Origin: Saccharopolyspora thermophila
GTDB taxonomy: Bacteria > Actinomycetota > Actinomycetes > Mycobacteriales > Pseudonocardiaceae
Direction of reading: 5' to 3'
DNA: 64,000 nucleotides
Assembly (NCBI RefSeq): GCF_014646075.1
Contig: NZ_BMMT01000002.1
Location: 186,001-250,000 of the forward strand
The position numbers were made by a program, and so were the translations under genes. Below are positions 44,762 to 59,170 of this stretch, piece by piece. Every line of letters begins with the position of its first letter. Position 1 is the first letter of the stretch. The notes under the pieces were generated by a model that was given only the letters and a program-made list of their open reading frames with translations, searched no databases and had not been told where the DNA came from.

Positions 44762-44922
44762 TGCACGTGATCCGCACGCAAGGGGTGCGCCAGGAAGCCG
44801 GTGCGAGTCCGGCACGGTCGGCGCCACTGTGACCGGGGAGTGGACCTCCCGCGCGAGCCACCGGGGGACGACCTGGGAAGGCCGGAGGGACGCGGCGATC
44901 CGGGAGTCAGGACACTGCCGCC
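44762..44922 (+). promoter_or_regulatory. cobalamin riboswitch upstream of the chelatase subunit
   Basis: The core elements are GGAAGCCGGTGCGAGTCCGGC, GCGCCACTGTGACCGGGGAG and the B12 box GGGAGTCAGGACAC (44902-44915). CGGGG (44938-44942) can pair with CCCCG (44951-44955), which runs into the ribosome-binding site GAGGAAGGA. This is the same translational design as at cobN. The surrounding 415-nt gap holds no gene. Confidence 0.93.
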
Positions 44923-48368: not shown

Positions 48369-49714
48369 CCGGTTCCTCCGCGCGGGTCGTGGTGGCGGCG
48401 CCCGCGTCCGGGCAGGGCAAGACGACCGTGGCGACCGGGCTGCTGGCCGCGCTGCGGCGGCGCGGCACCCGCGTGGCGCCGTTCAAGGTCGGCCCGGACT
48501 ACATCGACCCCGGCTACCACCGGCTCGCCGCCGGACGTGCCGCGCGCAACCTCGACCCGGTGCTGGTCGGCGAGAAGCGCATCGCCCCGCTGTTCCGCTA
48601 CGGCTCGGCGGGGGCGGACCTGTCGGTGGTGGAAGGCGTGATGGGACTGTTCGACGGCCGCATCGGAGCCGGCGGCGAGCTCGCCCCCGGCTCCACCGCG
48701 CACGTCGCGCAGCTGCTCGACGCGCCGGTCGTGCTGGTCGTGGACGTCCGCGGCCAGAGCCACGGCCTGGCGGCCCTGCTGCACGGCTTCCGCAGCTACC
48801 GGCCGGCGATCCGGGTGGCCGGGGTGATCCTCAACCAGGTCGGGTCGTCGCGGCACGAGCAGGTGCTGCGCGAGGCCGCGGACGACGCGGGACTGCCGGT
48901 GCTGGGCGCCATCCCCCGCACCGACGACCTCGCCGTGCCCTCCCGGCACCTCGGCCTGGTCACCGCCGCCGAGCACGGCAGCGCCGCGACCCGTGCCGTC
49001 GAGGCGATGGGCGACGTCGTCGCCGCCGGGGTGGACCTGGACGTGGTGGTGGCGTTGGCCCGCTCCGCGCCGCCGCTGGACGGGCCGACCTGGAACCCGG
49101 CCGACGAGGTCGCACCACGCGGACGACCGCTGATCGCGGTGGCGGGCGGCCCGGCGTTCACCTTCGGCTACGCCGAACACGAGGAACTGCTGCGCGCGGC
49201 AGGCGCCGAGGTCGAAGTGCTGGACCCGCTGCGCGACGAAAAGCTCCCCGCGGGCACCGCCGGTCTCGTGCTGCCCGGCGGTTTCCCCGAGCAGCACGCC
49301 GCTGAGCTCTCGGCGAACACCCGGCTGCGCGCGGAGATCCGCGCCCTGGCCGCAACCGGCGCGCCAATCCAGGCCGAGTGCGGCGGACTGCTGTACCTGG
49401 CGGAGGAACTGGACGGTACCCCGCTGTGCGGTGTGCTGCCCGCGCGGGCGCGGATGTCGCCGCGGTTGGTTCTCGGCTACCGGGACGCCGTCGCGGCCGC
49501 TGATTCCCCGCTGTTCGCCGAGGGAACCCGGGTCAGCGGGCACGAATTCCACCGCACCGAACTGGAACCCGGCAGCGGCGGGCCGCCGGCCTGGTTCTGG
49601 CGCGGTGCCCGGGAGGGGTTCGTCCAGGGCGGCGTGCACGCCTCCTACCTGCACACCCATCCCGCCGGGCAACCCGGTGCGGTCGAACGATTCGTGGCGA
49701 GGTGCGCGCGATGA
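48362..49714 (+). CDS. cobB: cobyrinic acid a,c-diamide synthase
   Basis: Amidates the a and c side chains of hydrogenobyrinic acid (or cobyrinic acid) with glutamine and ATP; 450 residues. The N-terminal P-loop domain shows VVVAAPASGQGKTTVATGL and FKVGPDYIDPGYH. The C-terminal glutamine amidotransferase domain has the nucleophile Cys in IQAECGGLLYL and the PGGFPEQHAAEL segment. Two adjacent GTG codons are possible starts; the second makes a GTGA overlap with cobO. Confidence 0.95.
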   Translation: MVTGSSARVVVAAPASGQGKTTVATGLLAALRRRGTRVAPFKVGPDYIDPGYHRLAAGRAARNLDPVLVGEKRIAPLFRYGSAGADLSVVEGVMGLFDGRIGAGGELAPGSTAHVAQLLDAPVVLVVDVRGQSHGLAALLHGFRSYRPAIRVAGVILNQVGSSRHEQVLREAADDAGLPVLGAIPRTDDLAVPSRHLGLVTAAEHGSAATRAVEAMGDVVAAGVDLDVVVALARSAPPLDGPTWNPADEVAPRGRPLIAVAGGPAFTFGYAEHEELLRAAGAEVEVLDPLRDEKLPAGTAGLVLPGGFPEQHAAELSANTRLRAEIRALAATGAPIQAECGGLLYLAEELDGTPLCGVLPARARMSPRLVLGYRDAVAAADSPLFAEGTRVSGHEFHRTELEPGSGGPPAWFWRGAREGFVQGGVHASYLHTHPAGQPGAVERFVARCAR

Positions 49715-50448
49715 GACTCGTCGGAGTCGGGGTCGGCCCCGGCGACCCCGAACTGCTGACCCTGGCCGCGCTGCGCGAGATCCGCGCCGCGGGCACGGTT
49801 TTCGTCCCGGTCCTCGCGGCCGACGAGCAGGGCCGCGCGGAGGCCGTGGTGCGGGCGCACCTCGGCGACGACGCCCGGGTGCAGCGGTTGGTGTTCGCCC
49901 TCGCCGACCCGGTCGACGGTCCGCAGGAGCGGCGGCACCGGCACTGGGACGCCGCCGCCGAGACCGTCGCGCAGCGGTTGCGCGAGCGCGGCGGCAGCGT
50001 GGTCTTCGCCACGCTCGGGGATCCCACGGTGTACTCCACGTTCAGCTACCTGGCCGCCTCGGTCGCCGAGCTCCTGCCCGAGGTCGAGCTGGCCGCGGTG
50101 CCCGGGATCACCGCGATGCAGGCCACCGCGGCGCAGGCCGGGGTGGCGCTCACCGAGGGCGCCGAGTCACTGACCGTGGTTCCCGTGATGCGAGACGTGA
50201 CCGCCCTGCGGGAGGCGCTGCGGGCACGCGGTACGGTCGTGGCCTACAAAGGCGGCCGGCGGCTCGGCGAGCTGCGCGCCGCGATCGCGGAAAGCGGTGC
50301 CCTGGAACGCGCGGTGTACGCCGAACACCTGGGCACGCCGGACGCGCGGGTGCTGCCGCTGTCCGAAGTGTCCGAAGTGGACGATGCGCCGTACCTGTCC
50401 ACTGTGGTAGTACTTCCACCCCGAGGCGGAAGAGGAGAACAATGGTGA
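49711..50448 (+). CDS. cobI: precorrin-2 C20-methyltransferase
   Basis: SAM-dependent methylation of precorrin-2 at C20, giving precorrin-3A; 245 residues, tetrapyrrole methylase fold. Motifs: VGVGVGPGDPELLTLAAL at the N-terminus, ATLGDPTVYSTFSYL near residue 97 and AVPGITAMQATAA, all as in CobI/CbiL. ATGA overlap with cobB and overlap with cobM show tight coupling. Confidence 0.93.
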   Translation: MRLVGVGVGPGDPELLTLAALREIRAAGTVFVPVLAADEQGRAEAVVRAHLGDDARVQRLVFALADPVDGPQERRHRHWDAAAETVAQRLRERGGSVVFATLGDPTVYSTFSYLAASVAELLPEVELAAVPGITAMQATAAQAGVALTEGAESLTVVPVMRDVTALREALRARGTVVAYKGGRRLGELRAAIAESGALERAVYAEHLGTPDARVLPLSEVSEVDDAPYLSTVVVLPPRGGRGEQW

Positions 50449-51863
50449 CTGGCCGGATCTCGTTCATCGGCGCTGGGCCCGGCGCGGCCGACCTGATCAC
50501 GGTCCGCGGTGCCAGGCGCATCGCCGAGGCCGACATCGTGGTGTGGGCGGCGAGCCTGGTCACCCCGGAATGCATCCGGGAGCACGCGCGCGCCGACGCC
50601 GAACTGGTCGACTCCTCCCGTCTCACCCACGAGCAGGCCCTGGAGATCTACCGCCGCGCCGAGCGCGACAAGCTCAAGGTCGCCCGCGTGCACTCCGGCG
50701 ACCCGTCGCTGTGGGGCGCGGTCCAGGAGCAGTACGACGCGTGCGCCCGGATGAACCTCGAGGTGGAGATCGTGCCCGGCGTCCCGGCGTTCTCCGCCGC
50801 CGCGGCGGCCATCGGGCGGGAGCTGACCGTGCCGGAGGTCGCCCAGTCGCTGGTGCTGACCCGCCTGGAGGGCGGCAAGACGCCGATGCCCGAAGGCGAG
50901 AAGGTGCGCGAGTTCGCCAAACACGGCACCACGATGGCGCTGTTCCTCTCCGCGGCGCGCACCGGCCAGCTCGTCGAGGAGCTGCGCGCCGGGGGCTACC
51001 CCGAGGACACCCCGGTGCTGGTGGCCTACAAGGTGACCTGGCCCGACGAACTGCTGCTGCGCACCACGCTCGCCGAGCTGGAGAAGACCGTCAAGCAGCA
51101 CAAGCTGTGGCGGCACACGCTGTTCATCGTCGGCAGAAGCCTCACCAGCAGCGGTACCCGCTCACGCCTCTACCACGCCGGGCACTTCCACACCTACCGC
51201 CGCGCCGACCCGGCCGCGCGGCGCGCCCTGCGGGAGCGGTCGGGCACGGCCCGCCGCCGGGAGAGCACCACCCGCGGCGAGCCCGACGCCGGTGAACCGG
51301 CCCGGGTCCGCGAGTCCGATGTGGCGTGGTGGGCGGTGCGCGACTGGCAGGAGTCGGCGCGCGGCGCGGCGCGGGTGACAACCAGCCGCTCGACCCCGGC
51401 CCGGCGCGTCGACGCGGCGCAGTCCCCGCTGTTCACCGACGAGGCCGTCGCGGCACCAGCGGTTCCCGCTGAGCGCCCCGCTCACCCGGCCGAAAGTCCC
51501 ACTGTCCCCGAAGCCCCCGGCGTTCCGGACACGCGCAGCGCTGAGGCAGGCGAAAGTTCCGCTCAGGCGGAACCGGCTGCAGCCCCGGGTGAACAGGACG
51601 CTCACCCGGTCGAATCGGGTGGGAGTTCCGCTCGCTCCGATGCGGCGACCACACGGCGGACCTCGGCGGCACGCACCTCGACCACCCGGGCGACCGCGAA
51701 GGCCACTCCCGCGAAGCGGACCACCAAGTCTGCGGCCGCGGCGAAGACGACCACCGCGAAGCGGGCCAGGACGTCGACCGCGAAGACCACCACGGCCAAG
51801 AGCGCCGCCACCAGGGCCAGGAAGCGCAAGTCCCCGGCGAAGCAGGATGAGCAGGGCGAGTGA
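50442..51863 (+). CDS. cobM: precorrin-4 C11-methyltransferase with long basic C-terminal tail
   Basis: Residues 1 to about 255 are a complete CobM, with SFIGAGPGAADLITVRGAR, VHSGDPSLWGAVQEQ, EIVPGVPAFSAAAAAIGREL and the late VGRSLTSSGTRSRLYHAGHF. Unlike ordinary CobM, which ends there, the frame runs on for about 218 residues. An acidic/Pro-rich section (about 325-400) with short repeats is followed by a final 70 residues very rich in Lys, Ala, Thr and Arg (AAKTTTAKRARTSTAKTTTA), like histone H1 or HupB tails. GAGGAG precedes the ATG. The next gene starts inside the tail's last codons. Confidence 0.93.
   Translation: MVTGRISFIGAGPGAADLITVRGARRIAEADIVVWAASLVTPECIREHARADAELVDSSRLTHEQALEIYRRAERDKLKVARVHSGDPSLWGAVQEQYDACARMNLEVEIVPGVPAFSAAAAAIGRELTVPEVAQSLVLTRLEGGKTPMPEGEKVREFAKHGTTMALFLSAARTGQLVEELRAGGYPEDTPVLVAYKVTWPDELLLRTTLAELEKTVKQHKLWRHTLFIVGRSLTSSGTRSRLYHAGHFHTYRRADPAARRALRERSGTARRRESTTRGEPDAGEPARVRESDVAWWAVRDWQESARGAARVTTSRSTPARRVDAAQSPLFTDEAVAAPAVPAERPAHPAESPTVPEAPGVPDTRSAEAGESSAQAEPAAAPGEQDAHPVESGGSSARSDAATTRRTSAARTSTTRATAKATPAKRTTKSAAAAKTTTAKRARTSTAKTTTAKSAATRARKRKSPAKQDEQGE
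51480..51615 (+). repeat. 120-bp-spaced direct repeat in the cobM tail
   Basis: CGCTCACCCGGCCGAA (from 51480) recurs as CGCTCACCCGGTCGAA (from 51600), exactly 120 bp apart and in frame, encoding AHPAES and AHPVES. It suggests the tail grew by internal duplication; most of the unit has since diverged. Confidence 0.55.
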
Positions 51864-53010
51864 CGACGGCCCGCAGCTGCGGGAACCAGACCTGCCGCGC
51901 ACCGCGAAGGTGCGGCCGAAGGCGCTGCGCACCGGCTTCACCACCGGCGCCTGCTCCGCCGCGGCGGCCAAGGCCGCGGCGGAGCTGATGGTCACCGGGC
52001 ACCTCCCGGCGGTGGTGGACATCCCGTTCCCGGACGGCCGCCACCGGCGGTTCCAGGTCGACTCGGGCAGCGCCGACCCCGCGACCGCGGTCGTGGTCAA
52101 GGACGCGGGCGACGACCCGGACGTCACCCACGGCGCGCGGCTGACCGTCACGGTCACCGCCCGCGGGGACGGCCAGGTGGTGCTGCACGGCGGCGAGGGC
52201 GTCGGGGTGGTGACCAAGCCGGGCCTGGGGCTGGAGGTCGGCGGTCCGGCGATCAATCCGGTGCCTCGCGAGATGATCACCGCGGCGGTGCGCGAGGTGA
52301 TCGGCGACCGCGGCGCGGACGTCACGATCACCGTGCCCGGCGGCGAGAAGATGGCCTACAAGACCACCAACCGTCGGCTCGGCATCTACGGCGGGATCTC
52401 CATCCTGGGCACCACGGGCATCGTGCGCCCGTTCTCCACCGCGTCGTGGCGCTCCAGTGTCGAGCAGGCGATCTCGGTGCTGGCCGCGCAGGGCGGCCGG
52501 ACCGCGGTGCTGTCCACCGGCGGGCGCACCGAGAAGGCCGCGATGCGGCTGCTGCCCGACGAGCCCGAGGTGGCGTTCGTCGAGGTCGGTGACTTCACCG
52601 GGGCGGCGCTGCGCCGCGCGGTCGAGCACGGGCTGGACGGCGTGGTGTTCGTCGGCATGATCGGCAAGCTGACGAAGCTGGCGTCCGGCGTGGTGATGAC
52701 GCACTACACGAGGTCCAAGGTGGACACCGCGCTGCTCGGTCGGCTGACCGCCGAGTTCGGCGGGGACCCCGCGCAGGTCGCGGAGATCGAGCAGGCCGCC
52801 ACCGCCCGCCGCGCCTACGAGGTGTGGCGGGGCAGCGGGCTGCTCCCGGCGTGTGCGCACCGGCTCTGCGAGCTGGTGGCAGCAGTATTGGAGCGGTTCA
52901 GCGAGGAATGTGGCCGCCGGTTGCCGGCCCGGGTCGCGATGGTGGACTTCCAGGGCGAGCACGTGGTGGCGGCCACCGAGGCGAGGTGGGTGACGTGGCA
53001 GTCACGGTGA
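51847..53010 (+). CDS. cbiD: cobalt-precorrin-5B (C1)-methyltransferase
   Basis: Methylates C1 during the steps after ring opening of the lactone, the anaerobic-type alternative to CobF; 387 residues. The N-terminal LRTGFTTGACSAAAAKAAA and the NPVPREMI segment are CbiD hallmarks, as are ISILGTTGIVRPFS and VFVGMIGKLTKLASGVVMTH. It overlaps cobM by 17 nt and cobL by 16 nt. Confidence 0.95.
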   Translation: MSRASDDGPQLREPDLPRTAKVRPKALRTGFTTGACSAAAAKAAAELMVTGHLPAVVDIPFPDGRHRRFQVDSGSADPATAVVVKDAGDDPDVTHGARLTVTVTARGDGQVVLHGGEGVGVVTKPGLGLEVGGPAINPVPREMITAAVREVIGDRGADVTITVPGGEKMAYKTTNRRLGIYGGISILGTTGIVRPFSTASWRSSVEQAISVLAAQGGRTAVLSTGGRTEKAAMRLLPDEPEVAFVEVGDFTGAALRRAVEHGLDGVVFVGMIGKLTKLASGVVMTHYTRSKVDTALLGRLTAEFGGDPAQVAEIEQAATARRAYEVWRGSGLLPACAHRLCELVAAVLERFSEECGRRLPARVAMVDFQGEHVVAATEARWVTWQSR

Positions 53011-59017: not shown

Positions 59018-59170
59018 GGATACGTCGGCCGACAGGGCAGGAACCCGGTGTGAGTCCGGGACGGTCCCGCCACTGTGACCGGGGAGTGGCCCCCACCGCA
59101 CGCCACGGCCGAAAGGCTGGAAGGCAGGGGTGACCACGTCGATCCGGGAGTCAGGACACTGCGCGTCGGC
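59018..59170 (+). promoter_or_regulatory. cobalamin riboswitch upstream of the Co/Ni transporter
   Basis: Core elements are GGAACCCGGTGTGAGTCCGGG, CGCCACTGTGACCGGGGAG and the B12 box CGGGAGTCAGGACACTG (59144-59160). Short outer pairing is possible between GTCGGCCGAC near the left end and CGTCGGCC after the B12 box. Downstream, a G/C palindrome (CGCGCCGCGGCGCG) may be the expression platform; it differs from the CGGGG/CCCCG design of the other two. The 393-nt gap holds no gene. Confidence 0.93.

Follow-up and report, generated by a model that had tools for sequence, protein, structure and literature searches.

A conserved C-terminal arm on the precorrin-4 methyltransferase CobM of Saccharopolyspora thermophila and its relatives, probably with a role independent of precorrin-4 methylation

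The window analysed here is a 64-kb stretch of Saccharopolyspora thermophila, in which the genes of a B12 cluster follow each other in the order cobO, cobB, cobI, cobM, cbiD, a CbiE/CbiT fusion (cobL), the CbiT part of which scores just under its cut-off, and a cbiG-cobJ fusion (Table 1). One cobalamin riboswitch lies upstream of this cluster, and a second one is found downstream of it, at 59038-59161. The cobM gene is the sole CobM seen in this genome. Its residues are counted here from the ATG at 50442, a start that was chosen by homology; the frame stays open further 5' and would encode 810 residues if read from the GTG at 49431. The first part of the protein matches TIGR01465 (CobM/CbiF) over residues 6-253, with 312.4 bits for a cut-off of 259.65 and positions 1-247 of the model covered, and it is also matched by PF00590. 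At 52 positions that are invariant in canonical CobM/CbiF proteins, this core departs at 6, which are nearly those found in 16 untailed actinobacterial relatives. The whole core, the SAM pocket and the cluster context are shared with known CobM/CbiF proteins, and the N-terminal half would be a normal SAM-dependent precorrin-4 methyltransferase, presumably active as such. However, the five nearest solved chains (4e16, 2cbf, 1cbf, 3ndc and 3nei) are 234-285 residues long, and the corynebacterial CobM described in the available extracts of PMC6478909 has 272 residues, which in both cases leaves no room for the 218-residue arm that follows the core here.

Table 1. Features of the cobM locus in the window (residue numbers are those of CobM)
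Feature	Position	Strand	Residues	Remarks
Cobalamin riboswitch upstream of the B12 cluster	44791..44917	+		RF00174, 63.4 bits
cobI, upstream neighbour of cobM	49711..50448	+		TIGR01467
CobM ORF	50442..51863	+	473 in all	ATG to stop; core plus about 218 extra residues
CobM core, precorrin-4 C11-methyltransferase	50442..51200	+	1-253	Tetrapyrrole methylase fold
Variable linker	51201..51311	+	254-290	
WW helix motif	51312..51374	+	291-311	ESDVAWWAVRDWQESARGAAR
QSPLF	51420..51434	+	327-331	QxxLF peptide; looks like a sliding-clamp-binding motif
Acidic, Pro-rich spacer	51438..51653	+	333-404	Net -8 in the stretch scored
Basic K/A/T/R end	51654..51839	+	405-466	Starts with RRTSAARTSTTRATAK
cbiD	51847..53010	+		TIGR00312; proposed ATG inside the last cobM codons

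The initial annotation had described an intact CobM core extended in frame by about 218 residues, with cbiD starting within the last codons of the tail, and both points are borne out by the 473-residue frame, the TIGR01465 match and the proposed cbiD start. It had also described a tail that turns from acidic and Pro-rich to histone-like with Lys, Ala, Thr and Arg, which agrees with the net charge of the spacer and with that of the last 65 residues (+15), but it overlooked the most constrained part of the tail, the WW helix, as well as the QxxLF peptide. In an AlphaFold2 model built on a 31-row alignment, the core is mostly ordered, the block pLDDT is 40-56 past residue 240, two helices (242-245 and 257-266) lie at the core boundary, and a helix at 295-308 (block pLDDT 51-55) is the sole one beyond residue 266. 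The mean pLDDT of 61.5 and the pTM of 0.38 are such that this model gives no docking place for the helix. The basic end falls on the disordered side of the charge-hydropathy boundary. A Pfam search with residues 292-473 retrieved no family at E values up to 10, within the speed filters of the tool, and a PDB search with the helix motif gave two weak matches only (an engineered protein at E 0.54 and pRLB-519 at 6.7), so that we rejected any known motif as the identity of the helix.

A direct repeat spaced by 120 bp had initially been taken as a sign that the tail grew by duplication. This does not hold in the window, where the repeat amounts to a 16-nt match (51479 and 51599, 94%), the 120-nt units are identical at 54 of 120 positions, and in a self-comparison of the tail DNA the lags 60 and 69 outscore lag 120, while lag 129 ties it; a duplicated tail was therefore rejected, because the 16-nt repeat fails to extend. 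As a separate observation made by eye, the spacer of one relative (G280, locus L126) contains repeated units of about 25 residues of the ERPVDAVEVSEQSVRSD type, which are more diverged in another (G112, L127).

Searching genome contigs yielded 61 loci that contain CobM relatives, among which long tails are found in the Saccharopolyspora members and in many others; the Pseudonocardia CobM stops near residue 270. The tail alignment was made from 31 of the 33 long tails, L041 and L042 being omitted as near copies of L040; two tails (L014 and L046) have no clear helix, and that of L047 is degenerate. When a query composed from the helix was run against 297 genomes of the family, of which 281 have a CobM (TIGR01465 at E 1e-60), 59 were matched, each a single time, with all of the 22 genomes drawn from the genus among them. 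Three matches had no CobM ORF within 10 kb (G086, G294 and G067) and were dropped, which leaves, besides the window, 55 genomes with a helix match inside a CobM ORF, thus 56 in all. An in-frame tail in 55 other genomes rules out a frameshift or an assembly artefact. Among 394 genomes of the class, a draw in which the share of family members is only partly shown, the window's match alone was convincing; six others were weak (E 6e-4 to 5e-3) and were judged to be chance matches. No match was found in 72,556 plasmid records. Single matches in 59 of 297 family genomes and weak ones in the class led us to reject the helix as a mobile or shared domain. The comparison with relatives thus indicates that the tail is a non-random feature shared beyond the genome of the window. 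At the level of listings, the open-licence literature on CobM, precorrin-4 methyltransferases and Saccharopolyspora yielded no mention of it.

The helix is the best conserved element of this arm. It can be written as AWWAVRDWQESAR and is amphipathic; a regular expression for the motif matches 55 of the 56 tailed family proteins, the exception (G019) reading AWRAVHGWQ by eye. Its eight marked positions (295, 296, 298, 299, 302, 303, 306 and 307) fall within 180 degrees of a helical wheel, a face that the nearly invariant R300 broadens to 200 degrees, and W297 (27/31) and D301 (26/31) lie off it. Among 19 Saccharopolyspora-like sequences, the pairwise amino acid identity is 0.85 for the helix and 0.83 for the core, and only 0.28 for the linker (269-289) and 0.31 for the spacer. 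This is not due to a constraint on the DNA itself, which we rejected since synonymous codons vary: in the same sequences, codon identity at conserved residues is 0.66 in the helix and 0.77 in the core (it reaches 0.89 in the QxxLF stretch, which may be a matter of codon preference). Across 25 pairs of sequences, the helix shows a dN/dS of 0-0.40 and the basic end one of 0.16-0.84; for the linker (262-289), it is 0.18-1.40 in 22 of the 25 pairs, 0 in one and undefined in two. These pairs were picked by hand, as were the 26 pairs used below for the core and the neighbouring genes, and the Nei-Gojobori estimates are crude at high GC content. By these measures, the WW helix is under strong purifying selection.

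The second short element is a QxxL(F or xL) peptide located 27-46 residues past the start of the helix in 39 of 57 tails, for an expectation of 0.13 by shuffling; as the tails are related, these 39 matches represent one conserved feature rather than 39 events. The peptide occurs as pentamers (QSQLF, QPDLF, QSDLF) and as hexamers (QVTLPV, QPMLEL, QGTLAL), and a hexamer class also exists among clamp-binding motifs. It is conceivable that this peptide binds the sliding clamp DnaN and that the basic end holds the nearby DNA, so that the protein would ride the replisome. The QxxLF spacing, the LF ending and the disordered context resemble those of sliding-clamp-binding peptides as presented in the available parts of PMC4549789, PMC3716654 and PMC8228993, and the C-terminus of NucS, which reads EYRLF in the genome of the window and EFRLF in three further genomes examined, resembles the actinobacterial form [E/K][L/Y][T/R]LF given in the latter. 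However, the consensus given in the parts seen of PMC4549789 and PMC3716654 (QLxLF or QL[S/D]LF) has a Leu at the second position, which is found in none of the 39 CobM matches, and 18 of the 57 tails have no match at all, including those of Actinopolyspora and g43, which do bear the helix. We thus regard a replisome rider of this kind as quite unlikely.

The last segment of the arm is its basic end. In the window, the last 65 residues of CobM contain 10 Lys for a net charge of +15, to be compared with -3 to +2 and 0-4 Lys in eight neighbouring proteins. The net charge of a single tail says little, because the +1 frame of the same stretch is even more basic (+22, against -8 in the +2 frame) and neither of these frames contains Lys; it is thus the Lys content and the constancy among relatives, rather than the charge alone, that exceed chance. 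This constancy is clear, as the last 65 residues are basic in all 56 tails (net +7 to +16, median +11, with 1-14 Lys), so that the position and the basic composition proposed in the initial annotation hold well beyond the window. The stretch that precedes is negative in 47 of the 56 tails (median -7); the other 9, most of which are nearly devoid of a spacer, have a charge of zero or above. Within the basic end, look-alikes of the opening RRTSAARTSTTRATAK block (51654-51701) can be seen by eye in other genera, in forms of the SAAATSTAGRVTARV type or of the RTTSSVSAKV type, and this block is possibly a third motif of the tail.

Lysine- and alanine-rich C-termini are known from the HU proteins HupB and HupS, and the CobM arm shares with them a disordered, Lys/Ala-rich basic C-terminus. 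The part that carries it is in HupB and HupS the folded, DNA-binding HU, while it is here a methyltransferase. The lysine-rich tails of these HU proteins are described as eukaryote-like in the portions available of PMC5676037 and PMC11229371. As judged from residues 292-473, for which no HU or H1 family was retrieved under the Pfam settings given above, the resemblance of the CobM tail is compositional. Actinobacterial topoisomerase I, which according to the available part of PMC7398561 has lysine repeats in a C-terminal extension, provides the case of another enzyme with such an extension, but one that acts on DNA, whereas CobM has no known nucleic-acid substrate. This likeness to the HupB and topoisomerase I tails points to nucleic acid as the partner of the polycation. 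Nucleic-acid binding is our best guess for the tail, and binding to the sliding clamp is a weaker lead.

We then consider what accompanies the tailed gene. The 56 tailed genomes comprise 12 in which it is the sole CobM, 40 in which it is redundant and 4 without CobI. In the 40 redundant genomes there is a second CobM devoid of the helix motif: 36 of them show two matches, and four (G097, G134, G150 and G177) a single match away from the tail (for G019, the places of the CobM matches are not among the matches listed). Next to the tailed gene of these 40 genomes, cobI, cbiD or both have been lost or have decayed. Overall, an intact cbiD adjoins the tailed gene in 12 of the 56 genomes, whereas in 44 this gene is absent or reduced to a short remnant, and cobI is intact in 13 (the same 12, which have both genes, and G019, which has it alone) and missing or decayed in 43, among which we counted G275, where 46% identity over 234 residues is found within 474 bp. 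This is particularly clear within the genus: in 22 genomes, all 12 that lack an intact pair have two CobMs and all 10 that have both genes have one, the helix motif being kept in the 22, whatever the copy number. On a midpoint-rooted CobO-CobB-CobL tree of 51 of the 56 genomes (those in which each of the three proteins was covered over 80%), the losses of cobI and cbiD form 11 clades, 6 of them in the genus; because the rooting matters and some groupings are poorly supported (0.375 for G262 with G248), there may have been fewer loss events. In loci L128-L144, which include the two-copy Saccharopolyspora genomes, fragments of cobI and cbiD of varied length lie at the cobB-cobM and cobM-cobL junctions and form a series of gene-decay stages within one genus.

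The loci of the second, short CobM were examined for 20 of the 40 redundant genomes. They hold ORFs of 250-260 residues, 40-46% identical to the core of the window, near which CobL is found in 20 of 20, CobI and CobJ in 18 and a CbiD-like gene in 16. These loci (L184-L203) contain a divergent second set, with cobL, the short cobM, mostly a cbiD-like gene, cobJ and cobI, which lies about 15-42 kb away from the tailed gene or in another part of the genome.

In four tailed genomes (G043, G076, G099 and G023), neither CobI (at E 1e-20) nor CobJ (at E 1e-15) was detected, and their CobM keeps WWAVRDWQ and the basic end, which is Arg-rich in G023. No cobalamin riboswitch at the gathering score was found in the 20 kb around these four genes, a weak sign since the two-copy genome L136 is also without one. 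Near the tailed gene of G043, G076 and G099, we found no cobO, cobB or cobL, and the adjoining ORF starts with what we take to be a siroheme-synthase-like sequence. At L159, L165, L168 and L175, loci of the tailed CobM in genomes without CobI and CobJ, a presumably siroheme-synthase-like ORF and a presumably P450-like ORF are nearby.

These neighbourhoods bear on two other explanations of the arm. As a fallback, it had been proposed initially that the tail is a disordered linker kept for translational coupling of cobM with cbiD, and one could extend this to a neutral extension. The linker and the spacer do evolve almost freely, and the last cobM codons overlap cbiD. However, the helix is under strong purifying selection, the end is basic throughout, tails persist in the 44 genomes without an intact neighbouring cbiD, and the untailed L016 does without a tail even though cobI and cbiD flank its cobM. 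We therefore hold a neutral or purely coupling tail to be highly improbable; together with the four genomes without CobI and CobJ, the absence of an intact cbiD in 44 of 56 makes a second function likely, and the broader part of the initial proposal, a role beyond corrin synthesis, thus fares better than its fallback. The other explanation is that the helix and the arm gather the B12 enzymes in a metabolon. CobL adjoins the tailed gene in 52 of the 55 loci fetched, and such amphipathic helices commonly dock on proteins. But the arm persists in the four genomes without a CobI or CobJ match, g43 has no cobO, cobB or cobL within 10 kb of the tailed gene, and a scaffold leaves the constant polycationic end unexplained, so that we find this arrangement decidedly unlikely. 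It should be added that, as CobL survives in nearly all of these loci, survival amid the decay is not special to CobM, and is suggestive rather than a proof.

The core itself also differs between these groups of genomes. The 52 invariant positions were defined from 11 distant CobM/CbiF (nine from other phyla and two from distant Actinomycetota) and the 20 short copies. The 16 untailed actinobacterial relatives and the 12 sole tailed copies are changed at 6-7 of them, the 40 redundant copies at 6-20, with 39 of the 40 at 9 or more, and the four copies without CobI at 18-19; the redundant copy of G241, changed at 6 sites, shows no drift. In contrast, all 56 tailed proteins have the same residues at nine positions of the SAM pocket. 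Over ten positions on the precorrin side, the sole and untailed copies have an identity to the window of 1.00, the redundant ones of 0.66 and those without CobI of 0.75; since two control sets that are both presumably active reach only 0.79 (short copies) and 0.85 (distant set), the redundant value is low, that of the copies without CobI hardly so, and the measure is a weak one. We chose both sets of positions ourselves, from conservation and from the GAGPGD/SAM description in the available part of PMC6478909. For the core, dN/dS lies at 0.05-0.13 among 7 sole pairs and at 0.12-0.62 among 17 redundant ones. Being higher in the latter and always below 1, it indicates a core that is relaxed where redundant, yet still under selection. 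For the neighbouring genes, the values of sole and redundant pairs are similar for CobO and CobB, 0.09-0.23 and 0.07-0.36, respectively, for CobL, and 0.06-0.21 and 0.14-0.34 for CbiG-CobJ, so that these last two also show a slight increase in redundant pairs. The two pairs without CobI have a core dN/dS of 0.04 and 0.16, and are thus constrained rather than decaying.

The retained SAM pocket allows for a new methyltransferase or for a SAM-binding anchor. In the first case, the core of the two-copy genomes would methylate another substrate, nucleic acid or protein, to which the arm would guide it. RsmI and diphthine synthase, which have the tetrapyrrole methylase fold and are not CobM orthologues, have moved to substrates other than tetrapyrroles. 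The constant SAM pocket amid changes at other canonical residues, and the constraint on the copies without CobI, would fit such a shift. However, SAM may be bound for sensing or stability alone, and much of the precorrin loop persists in the copies without CobI. We consider a new substrate to be rather unlikely.

The reading that we prefer is that the tail is a conserved arm and that CobM probably has a role independent of precorrin-4 methylation. As far as sequence comparison can tell, the C-terminal half would be a disordered arm in which an amphipathic helix that binds a partner is followed, in most cases, by a QxxLF-type peptide and an acidic spacer, and then by a polycationic end; this layout is conserved, and the arm would act by binding. 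We see the chances as evenly balanced that CobM is a protein with two functions, in which the most likely task of the arm is to tether the SAM-binding core to nucleic acid, be it the nucleoid or RNA, while the helix docks on a protein partner. Where a second CobM is present, the canonical residues of the core erode but neither the SAM pocket nor the arm does, possibly because the short copy takes over corrin synthesis. More specifically, and only tentatively, one lineage of the family may have converted a B12 methyltransferase into a SAM-binding protein attached to the nucleoid or the replisome. The arm that it gained would comprise the docking helix, the clamp-type peptide and the histone-like end, and once a second CobM had released the protein from corrin synthesis, its SAM pocket and arm would have lasted, even in bacteria that apparently make the corrin ring no more.

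If this is true, the tailed CobM would show, in steps that can be traced, how a metabolic enzyme gains a second role through a disordered arm, with intermediate stages that are still alive: the sole copy, the redundant copy with a drifting core and the copy found without CobI and CobJ. The natural two-copy strains would make the second role separable from B12 synthesis, and genes that are annotated as CobM in such genomes may act otherwise.
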